Origin: an uncultured Eubacteriales bacterium
Lineage (GTDB): Bacteria; Bacillota; Clostridia; Lachnospirales; Lachnospiraceae
Direction: 5' to 3'
NCBI GenBank assembly: GCA_949292785.1
Contig: CASFBK010000009.1
Coordinates: 62,001 to 126,000, forward strand
Length of the DNA: 64,000 bases
The position numbers were made by a program, and so were the translations under genes. Shown here piece by piece: positions 16,366-38,031 of the stretch (position 1 is its first letter; each line of letters opens with the position of its first letter). Below the pieces are notes generated by a model. That model was not told the DNA's origin and did no database searches. It saw only the letters and a program-made list of their open reading frames with translations.

Positions 16366-17298
16366 TTATTCTACAAACAAAGAGGTGGAATAATACCGGT
16401 CTCCACTGTCCGGCAGTAATGCTACAATGGTTTTTCCTTCATTTTCCGGTCTTTTTGCCAGTTCCAGCGCTGCAAATAATGCTGCACCTGAGGAAATACC
16501 TACCAGTACACCCTCTGTCTTGGCAATTTCTTTTCCTGTCTCAAATGCATCTTCATTTGACACTGTAATAATCTCGTCATAAATCTTGGTATTTAAGGTA
16601 TCCGGTACGAAACCGGCTCCAATTCCCTGAATCTTATGTGGTCCTCCCTTTCCTTCGGATAAAACCGGAGAAGCAGATGGCTCCACTGCAACAATTTTTA
16701 CTTCTGGGTTCTGGGACTTCAAATACTCTCCGGTTCCGGATATAGTTCCACCGGTTCCTACTCCTGCCACAAAAATATCTACTTTTCCTTCTGTGTCCTT
16801 CCAAATTTCAGGTCCTGTGGTCTTTTTATGGATTTCCGGATTTGCCGGATTCTCAAACTGTCCCGGAATAAAGCTGCTTGGAATCTCTTTTGCCAGTTCT
16901 TCCGCCTTGGCAATAGCACCTTTCATTCCCTTAGGTCCATCTGTCAGCACCAGTTCGGCACCATATGCTTTTAAAATATTACGCCGCTCTACGCTCATAG
17001 TTTCCGGCATAGTCAGAATCACGTGATAGCCTTTCGCCGCTGCAATGGCAGCTAAACCAATTCCGGTATTTCCAGAGGTCGGCTCTATAATTACAGAGCC
17101 TTCCTTTAGAATTCCTCTTTCTTCCGCATCTTCAATCATTGCTTTTGCAATTCGGTCTTTGACACTTCCTGCCGGATTAAAGTATTCTAGCTTTACCAAA
17201 ACCTTGGCTTTCAACTCATGCTTTTTTTCAATATTTACCACTTCCACCAAGGGCGTGTTTCCAATTAAATCCAGTGTTCCTTTAAATATTCCAGCCAT
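16366..17298 (-). CDS. cysK: Cysteine synthase A (O-acetylserine sulfhydrylase)
   Basis: PLP enzyme making L-cysteine from O-acetylserine and sulfide, 310 aa. PLP-binding Lys47 in [11 protein letters not shown], phosphate loop TSGNTG (74-79), substrate loop and [17 protein letters not shown]-terminal [16 protein letters not shown] is typical of CysK. It lies 18 nt downstream of metY and shares its promoter, so the two sulfhydrylases form one operon. Both are probably controlled by the sulfur-responsive leader at 18686-18851. Confidence 0.96.
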
Positions 17299-17316: not shown

Positions 17317-18624
17317 TTACTTCACTGCCTGAAATGCCTCTTCCAGGTCTTCGATAATATCATCAATATGCTCTGTTCCAATGGACAAACGAATGGTATT
17401 CTTATAGATTCCTTGTTCCTTCAGTTCTTCTTCATTCAACTGAGAATGTGTGGTAGAAGCCGGATGGATTGCAAGAGATTTTACGTCTGCCACATTTGCC
17501 AGAAGTGAAAATACTTCCAAATTATCAATAAAGTCTTTTGCGGTACGGTCATCTCCCTTAATTTCAAAGGTGAAAATAGAACCGCCTCCCTTCGGGAAGT
17601 ATTTCTTGTATAACTCCTGCTGTTTCGGGTCTGTAGTCACAGACGGATGATGCACTTTTTCTACCTGTGGATGGTTATTGAGGTATTCTACGACCTTCAA
17701 TGCGTTTTCCACATGACGCTCTACTCTTAAGGATAAGGTTTCTAATCCCTGCAGGAAAATAAATGCATGGAATGGAGAAAGGGTGGCTCCGGTATCTCTT
17801 AATAAAATTGCACGAATCTTAGTAACAAATGCCGCTGCTCCTACTGCCTTTGTAAAGCTTACGCCATGATAGCTTGGATTTGGCTCTGTCAGGGATGGGA
17901 ATTTTCCAGATGCTTCCCAGTCAAACTTTCCGCTGTCTACGATAACACCGCCGATTGCAGTTCCATGTCCTCCGATAAACTTGGTGGCAGAATGTACCAC
18001 GATATCTGCGCCATATTCAATCGGTCTTAACAGATATGGAGTAGCAAAGGTGCTGTCAACTACTAATGGTATTTTATGCGCATGAGCAATCTTTGCAACT
18101 GCCTCAATATCACTTACATCAGAGTTTGGATTTCCTAATGTTTCAATATAAAGAGCTTTTGTATTTTCCTGAATTGCTTTTTCAAAATTGGTTACATCTG
18201 CCGGGTCAACAAATGTTGTTTTGATTCCATACCCCGGAAGTGTATGCTCCAACAGGTTGTAGCTTCCTCCGTAAATGTTGTTTGCCGCTACAATGTGGTC
18301 TCCGTTCTGTGCTAGATTCTGAATAGTATAAGTGATTGCTGCTGCACCGGAAGCTACTGCAAGGGCTGCTACTCCACCTTCTAAAGCTGCAATTCTCTGT
18401 TCAAAAATATCCTGTGTCGGATTGGTCAGTCTTCCGTAAATATTTCCTGCATCTGCTAATCCAAATCTTGCTGCTGCGTGGTCTGAGTTGTGGAATACAT
18501 AAGAGGATGTTGCATAGATTGGTACCGCTCTTGCATCAGTAACCGGATCCGGCTGTTCCTGTCCTACGTGTAACTGTAATGTTTCAAATTTTAAATTTCT
18601 ATCTGCGTATGCTTTTTTACTCAT
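17317..18624 (-). CDS. metY: O-acetylhomoserine aminocarboxypropyltransferase / sulfhydrylase (MetY type)
   Basis: PLP-dependent Cys/Met metabolism enzyme, 435 aa, joining O-acetylhomoserine to sulfide to give homocysteine. Family signature [20 protein letters not shown] with PLP Lys215; N-terminal [32 protein letters not shown] is diagnostic for MetY over MetB/MetC. ATG at 18624 has AAGGAG 8 nt upstream. First full-length gene of the metY-cysK operon, with a 25-codon Cys-rich ORF 61 nt upstream. Confidence 0.95.
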
Positions 18625-18685
18625 CTTTCTCTCTCCTTATTTTACAAATGTTTTTGTTTGGCTTCTCTTACTATTTATCTTTTAT

Positions 18686-18763
18686 TTATCTTTCACAACA
18701 GAAACAGCCGCACATTCGGTCATCTTTCGTTATGTATTTTCTCTTGTTTTCCTGTTCTTTCAT
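18686..18763 (-). CDS. Cys-rich leader peptide upstream of metY-cysK (25 aa)
   Basis: Short ORF between the metY promoter and metY. ATG at 18763 has AGGAG exactly 8 nt upstream, one of the best ribosome sites in this region, and the frame ends at TAA (18686-18688). The peptide starts MKEQENKRKYITKDDR and ends MCGCFCCER, so four of its last eight residues are Cys (TGC, TGT, TGT, TGT). Its position and composition suggest a cysteine-sensing leader peptide, like the short Cys uORFs known upstream of cysteine genes in Mycobacterium. A small metal-binding protein is the alternative. No classic terminator lies between it and metY. Confidence 0.65.
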   Translation of the reverse strand: MKEQENKRKYITKDDRMCGCFCCER

Positions 18764-18822
18764 GGCTGATTCTCCTTTTCCTATATTTCCTACTTGTTTA
18801 AGAGGTTATTTAGCATAGTCAT

Positions 18823-18851
18823 ACTATACCCTACTTTTCCTACTGTGTCAA
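18823..18851 (-). promoter_or_regulatory. metY-cysK promoter
   Basis: Strong minus-strand promoter: -35 TTGACA (18846-18851), 17 nt spacer, -10 TATAGT (18823-18828). Several copies of (G/A)TAGGAAA occur around it, near 18887, 18838, 18788 and 18779, possibly operator half-sites. Confidence 0.8.
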
Positions 18852-37741: not shown

Positions 37742-38031
37742 AAATTAAAAGGCTGTGAAAAGAAAAGTAAATGACAGGAAGTGTCACAGAGAGTTTGGAA
37801 TGGTGAGAGCAAACACAACGAATGTCATGGAAAATCGTCTTGGAGCCGCGTACCGACTACAGGAATTGTATAGGCTACGATGGGAGTGCCCATTACAGCA
37901 CCAGAGTATCGAATGATTTCTATTCCGTACTTGTAGAGGTCTATACTGTGAGGTATAGATGAATTAAGGTGGTAACACGAAGCGCCAAGCTATCGTCCTT
38001 GAAATAAACAACAAGGAGGGTAGCTTTTTTA
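37742..38031 (+). promoter_or_regulatory. T-box riboswitch leader upstream of a GNAT gene
   Basis: tRNA-sensing leader of about 290 nt. AGTA motif (37766-37769), upper stem I ATGACA (37771-37776) pairing with TGTCAT (37823-37828), then the specifier side 37829-37840 (GGAAAATCGTCT) and TTGGAGC. The T-box AAGGTGGTAACACG is at 37966-37979. A terminator AGCTATCGTCCTTG/CAAGGAGGGTAGCT with six Ts ends near 38030. The specifier cannot be settled: ATC (Ile) at 37834-37836 or AAT (Asn) are the candidates. Downstream is a GNAT acetyltransferase, not a synthetase. Confidence 0.9.

Follow-up and report, generated by a model that had tools for sequence, protein, structure and literature searches.

On the minus strand of the window, the whole 64,000-nucleotide stretch of Lachnospiraceae DNA that was analysed, a short cysteine-rich upstream open reading frame (uORF) with its own ribosome site lies between a promoter and the metY-cysK gene pair (Table 1). 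The preliminary description was correct in the codon number and strand of the uORF, in how its C-terminus reads and in its ribosome site. Judging by its sequence, the uORF is probably translated. The 1157-residue ORF 3′ of cysK is presumably dnaE, and a YerC/TrpR-like gene lies 5′ of the promoter.

Table 1. Features of the metY-cysK locus (window positions)
Feature	Position	Strand	Remark
Operator-like inverted repeat CCTATTGACACAGTAGGAA	18837..18855	-	over the -35 box
Promoter TTGACA-17-TATAGT	18823..18851	-	sigma-70-type, 11/12 consensus positions
Ribosome site of the uORF, AGGAG	18772..18776	-	8 nt 5′ of ATG
uORF, type I leader peptide MKEQENKRKYITKDDRMCGCFCCER	18763-18686	-	25 codons plus stop, read from the ORF
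CGA ATG (Arg-Met)	18713..18718	-	directly 5′ of the first Cys codon
Cys-coding stretch TGC GGC TGT TTC TGT TGT	18695..18712	-	
Spacer, uORF to metY	18625..18685	-	A-rich, 61 nt
Ribosome site of metY, AAGGAG	18638-18633	-	in the spacer
metY, O-acetylhomoserine sulfhydrylase	17317..18624	-	TIGR01326 above cut-off
cysK, cysteine synthase A	16366..17298	-	TIGR01139 above cut-off

The scanned region contained three promoter-like sites, against 2.7 expected. Because this number is not above chance, the scan alone proves nothing; weak as it is by itself, the window promoter carries at its -35 box an operator-like site that recurs before metY in relatives.

Recurrence of the leader before metY

A metY gene was found at E<=1e-180 in 300/397 genomes of the family. 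The metY regions that were read began with 28 loci of the genus, L068 and another 28 from the family, to which 80 and subsequently 39 were added. The sample is uneven: 28 regions come from the genus, and the family part consists of the nearest metY places among the matches listed. Three regions of 137 with less than 200 nt of upstream sequence (L058, L101, L114) were left out of the motif test, leaving 134. A uORF with a ribosome site plus M-C-C or M-C-x-C was present in 15/134 of these upstream regions, whereas the average over 20 dinucleotide-shuffled sets was 0.2, with a maximum of 1 of 134, and the antisense control gave 0/134. Two of the 15, L146 and L173, differ from the window's type. 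Cysteine uORFs before metY are not due to chance.

Leaders of the window's kind (type I), defined by R/V-M-C, were found in 18/173 metY regions. The R/V-M-C class numbered 19 regions, one of which (L364) was moved out because the type II model described below matches it. R-M-W-x-C variants occurred in 3/173 regions and type II leaders in two (L146 and L364). L173, which passes the motif test with a uORF located far upstream, was counted in neither type, and L092, which satisfies a loose type II rule, was set aside as a suspected chance case. By these rules 150/173 regions have no leader. Among the 28 metY loci of the genus, including one without upstream sequence (L058), three carry a leader and two the diverged R-M-W form. 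The preliminary description had named absence of the uORF before metY of relatives as one result that would count against it; the uORF is conserved there, patchily. By a tally of genus labels type I extends over about 17 genera, including L245, which came from a profile search and not from the 173-region set.

When the profile was run against the family, its ten top-scoring matches (E<=0.0017) were all located 5′ of metY, as were two weaker new ones (G140 and G251); the ten either belonged to the profile or lay near it. With the window peptide alone as the query of 200 family genomes, nothing past the window scored better than E=0.013. Of the 32 loci read from this single-peptide search only L001 and L005 contained metY, and the L005 match, on the opposite strand to its cysK-metY, was judged a chance match. 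A degenerate DNA pattern run over the genome contigs gave 31 stretches, against about 30 by a rough chance estimate; just two of them lay before metY, L225 (Anaerobutyricum hallii) and L226 (a Clostridiales MAG). Two Anaerococcus genomes (L220, L221) contain a similar stretch antisense to a phage-like gene; it was rejected, as was L223, which resembles it.

The C-terminal sequence YITKDDRMCGCFCC is identical in three species of the genus (the window species, L034 and L035), in which the N-terminal part of the leader has diverged. Comparison of 13 of its 14 codons revealed four synonymous and no amino-acid differences. Elsewhere type I leaders have R/V-M-C in common. A hydrophobic pair in most cases precedes this core by about 4-7 residues, and none to five further cysteines follow it. 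The number of Cys codons runs from one (L144, R-M-C-stop) to six (A. hallii L225, R-M-C-M-C-C-C-C-C).

The arginine of the core is encoded by CGA in 15/15 R-M-C leaders, in 3/3 R-M-W variants and in L245 and L225; the background is 55/606 Arg codons in 33 window ORFs. The remaining 3/18 type I leaders have valine, encoded by GTC. The three R-M-W-x-C variants keep CGAATGTG and have Trp at the place of the first Cys. Counting of cysteines gives no account of the invariant CGA. Methionine makes up 22/143 core residues in 17 type I leaders and 59/230 in 23 type II leaders, a high share to which the fixed R-M and M-C contribute. These leaders may sense methionine too.

Terminator-bearing leaders

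Two exact copies of the operator sequence CCTATTGACANNGTAGGAA occur in the genome, one of them at the window -35 box. The other led to a second leader, L260 (G000:C3:71175-71440), which represents type II. Its layout is operator, AAGGAAG, a 38-residue ORF MKFYSINITKENMCFCRKMDSRAYDAAGCVGMRCFAPV, a strong hairpin with seven T at its end, and two ABC permease genes. The predicted terminator and antiterminator and the well-placed Cys codons are the anatomy of a transcription attenuator. The first permease was above the cut-off only for the general family TIGR01726; the cystine permease model was among its best matches, yet below the cut-off. A homologous permease (E<=1e-70) occurs in 3/29 genus genomes. 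In two relatives the homologue lies 3′ of a binding-protein gene, behind what we take to be a MetI permease, and no such leader was found there. A metY-specific link of the L260 permease was discarded on these grounds, the permease being present in only 3/29 genomes and the leader lacking in two relatives.

The L260 peptide used as query matched 16/397 genomes at E<=0.05, its own included. Seven loci were read; five were accepted, located before metY (L288, L292), a binding protein (L290, L291) or a Cys/Met PLP enzyme (L296), and L289 and L298 were rejected on reading. The five accepted loci, L260 and L146 served as the seven seeds of a covariance model, R1. R1 matched 21/121 family genomes at E<=1 and 17/121 at E<=1e-3; at the stricter threshold there were 20 places, 16 of them outside the model, and L320 (E=0.012) was kept out of the 16. 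R1 did not match the other loci of the peptide search, L293-L295, L297 and L299-L302. Rfam 15 had no match for the window uORF or for type II, only below-cut-off matches to unrelated families.

Reading of the 16 further loci revealed a terminator 3′ of the leader in 14. The genes 3′ of the leaders, also named by reading, were metY (8), importer binding protein (2), Cys/Met PLP enzymes (2), a MetN-like ATPase (1) and others (3). The exceptions without a visible terminator, L318 and L326, are type II-like leaders before metY and may be intermediates towards type I. Three type II leaders stand before genes not obviously connected with sulfur, read as GST-like (L324), M20-type peptidase (L315) and short-chain dehydrogenase (L317).

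A terminator and a competing antiterminator, as in a classical attenuator, are found at L260 and its relatives. In the 16 further loci 10/16 antiterminator pairs changed on both sides; in an alignment that was fitted to the R1 model, none of 500 shuffles reached four of the five covariation measures, one reached the fifth, and slid versions scored far lower. The 7-seed alignment alone showed weak covariation (20 to 48/500 shuffles reached four measures and 488/500 the fifth). In 22/23 type II leaders 11-20 nt separate the antiterminator strand from the closest Cys codon 5′ of it; in L317 the distance is 5 nt. By the general logic of attenuation and the size of the ribosome footprint, a ribosome waiting at those Cys codons leaves the antiterminator strand free, and therefore a shortage of Cys-tRNA would favour readthrough of type II. 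A protector helix starting from CGAAUG gave a combined z of -3.2 over 21 type II leaders, carried by a few of them.

The two types resemble each other. In a single genome the type I core of the window reads ITKDDRMC and the type II core of L260 ITKENMC; similarly, LLRQN(F/Y)R-GRM is common to L319 (type II, LLRQNFR-GRM) and L245 (type I, LLRQNYR-GRM). Both types are present together in G000, G007 and G037. CGAATG is kept in both, before the Cys codons in type I and, in 20/23 type II leaders, after them. Sensing by Cys codons is well supported for type II leaders and, by relationship, for the window's, because most R1 loci lie before sulfur genes and the antiterminator covaries outside the model.

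Operator-like site and candidate repressor

The owner of the operator is likely a CymR-like Rrf2 repressor. CymR belongs to the Rrf2 family (PMC2940859, PMC9338935) and, in the accessible parts of these papers, acts on transcription start and not via a uORF; the link of such a repressor with the window operator is one of sequence association. The genome contains four Rrf2 genes, one of which has an operator-like site, CCCATGGAAAAAGTAGGAA, 5′ of it. That gene (L259, G000:C5:214909-215325), a candidate CymR, has a second cysK and a gene for a binding protein 3′ of it, both named by reading. In L097, L122 and L154 an Rrf2-like C-terminus, again by reading, ends just 5′ of metY.

The operator-like pattern was present in 9/15 of the type I regions then known and in 17/158 others, among which sat three type I regions found later, all without the pattern. 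The pattern also occurs in regions without a leader, which shows that the two can be separated. When up to 3 mismatches were allowed, the operator search gave 24 places in the genome and the backward control 18, and little weight can therefore be given to weak sites. In the 5′ leader of the window AAGTAGGAAATATAGGAAA (18777-18795) repeats the TAGGAA half-sites of the operator and is possibly a second site.

Output step and interpretation

The preliminary description had stated that no classical attenuator follows the uORF, and we found the same: there are no terminator-like sites after it, and the metY ribosome site is open. R1 did not match the window uORF region; its only match in the window, at E=0.04, was elsewhere. 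The predicted unpaired share of the window metY ribosome site was 0.78 when free and 0.79 with a stalled ribosome. In 15 type I leaders the free value was 0.38-0.93. It rose by more than 0.1 on stalling only in L130 (0.38 to 0.81) and, weakly, in L142 (0.51 to 0.62), and it fell in L034 and L120. A hidden metY ribosome site as a shared device is thus unsupported over the 15 leaders, the window's included. L130 alone looks, in the model, like release of a ribosome site. The G+C content of the spacers is 18-53% over type I leaders (26% in the window), and no shared or switchable fold was found in them. Nor was there a convincing sign that the Cys segment pairs with the spacer (combined z of -2.7 for the duplex and -1.5 for the whole fold, 15 leaders).

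In gut bacteria of the Lachnospiraceae, the cysteine-rich uORF appears to be a conserved means of sensing how much cysteine is available. Translation of the leader peptide probably reports the supply of charged Cys-tRNA, perhaps of Met-tRNA too, and adjusts metY-cysK. When Cys-tRNA is scarce, the ribosome would stall at the Cys codons of the uORF and the output of metY-cysK would go up. Because the window leader has neither a terminator nor a hidden ribosome site, our reading is that the stalled ribosome itself acts, perhaps by protecting the mRNA from decay or the transcript from Rho; such an output is a guess, conceivable but on the doubtful side. The leader reading is supported because a conserved coding sequence is tied to metY and resembles the attenuator-bearing type II. 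The sensor function proposed in the preliminary description gains from the same two facts, that Cys codons stand in a leader tied to metY and that an attenuator-type sister exists in the genome, and is to that extent upheld. The operator-like site at the -35 box, the second leader and the fixed CGA go beyond that description. Against it stand the roughly 150/173 regions without leader, the number of cysteines varying from 1 to 6, the Trp variants, the invariant CGA and the negative outcome of the search for a switchable fold in type I. A wider scheme is rather unlikely as a whole: a sulfur regulon of two related Cys/Met-codon leaders, in which type II bears a terminator and the terminator-less type I controls metY by means of a ribosome stalled beside the fixed CGAAUGUG, with an output step that would be new among amino-acid leaders.

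The uORF could also be a relic or a plain leader that has lost its terminator, feeding ribosomes or idle while the operator alone regulates metY. The lack of a terminator and of a hidden ribosome site, the patchy presence of the leader and the operator-like sites where it is absent agree with this, whereas the C-terminus, identical in three species despite synonymous changes, and CGA in all R-M-C leaders disagree. Identity of the C-terminus and the fixed CGA point to selection on the uORF, and we give this explanation a small chance. About as improbable is an arrest peptide. In TnaC the nascent peptide stalls the ribosome with tryptophan; here a nascent chain ending in R-M-C would do so on free cysteine or another sulfur compound. 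Conservation reaches beyond the Cys codons to R/V-M-C and the preceding residues, and a leader with a single Cys ends in R-M-C-stop, as such a peptide might. The residues ahead of R-M-C vary among genera, however, the spacing in type II suits stalling at codons, and CGA is kept at the codon level, which a peptide sensor does not need. The CxCxCC of the window peptide might suggest a small protein that binds thiols or metals and works in trans. This is very improbable: spacing and number of the cysteines are not kept, Pfam and NCBIfam have no match for the uORF at E<=1, and the leader remains adjacent to metY.

Comparison of Cys-tRNA sensing by a leader peptide with known systems follows the accessible parts of the papers cited here. 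In Mycobacterium and P. acnes cysteine leader peptides precede cys operons, and in B. longum one precedes cbs (PMC1262725); those of M. smegmatis were tested by Canestrari 2020, as cited in PMC9031893 and PMC13236596. The Mycobacterium precedent invoked in the preliminary description is sound (PMC1262725, PMC9031893). Like the window leader, the actinobacterial ones are short ORFs with Cys codons near the stop, located before cysteine genes, with no terminator found. They belong to another phylum, and the M. smegmatis ORFs are leaderless, whereas the window uORF has a ribosome site; the window leader is further distinguished by R-M-C with a fixed CGA and by the terminator-bearing sister in the same genome. 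In Rhodobacterales uORFC-8-2, before cysS, has Cys codons, a U run and a terminator stem (PMC8632094). This combination resembles type II, but it occurs in Alphaproteobacteria and before another gene, and the window leader has no terminator.

Accounts of cysteine control in Firmicutes usually centre on CymR, CysR, S-boxes and T-boxes (PMC2940859). Before its own His leaders in bacilli, PMC2965389, in its accessible part, was aware of leader peptide systems only in Proteobacteria and Actinobacteria, ermC excepted; the literature listing also names work on His (PMC9413887) and a leucine attenuator in S. aureus (PMC5794164). Among the matches listed in our literature search (titles and abstract openings, few subscription journals) no cysteine leader peptide was found in Lachnospiraceae or other Firmicutes, which is weak evidence of novelty. 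If true, the cysteine leader regulon would add a layer of sulfur control in common gut bacteria. It would also raise a testable question, how a leader can regulate when it lacks a terminator and hides no ribosome site; here the apparent related attenuator in the same cell offers a control.

A cysteine-specific T-box precedes cysK, cysP1, cysP2 and ubiG of C. perfringens (PMC2940859). As proposed here, it senses Cys-tRNA charging for cysteine genes, in Clostridia; as the accessible part of that paper has it, the tRNA binds the RNA and there is no leader peptide. The Rfam search gave no T-box fold before the window metY, and upstream of metY at 20 genus loci it gave neither a T-box nor another fitting RNA. 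A TwoAYGGAY match in L040, about 230 nt upstream of metY, is on the opposite strand and was discarded. Elsewhere in the window, a T-box leader scoring over its gathering score is located at 37746-38003 (+).
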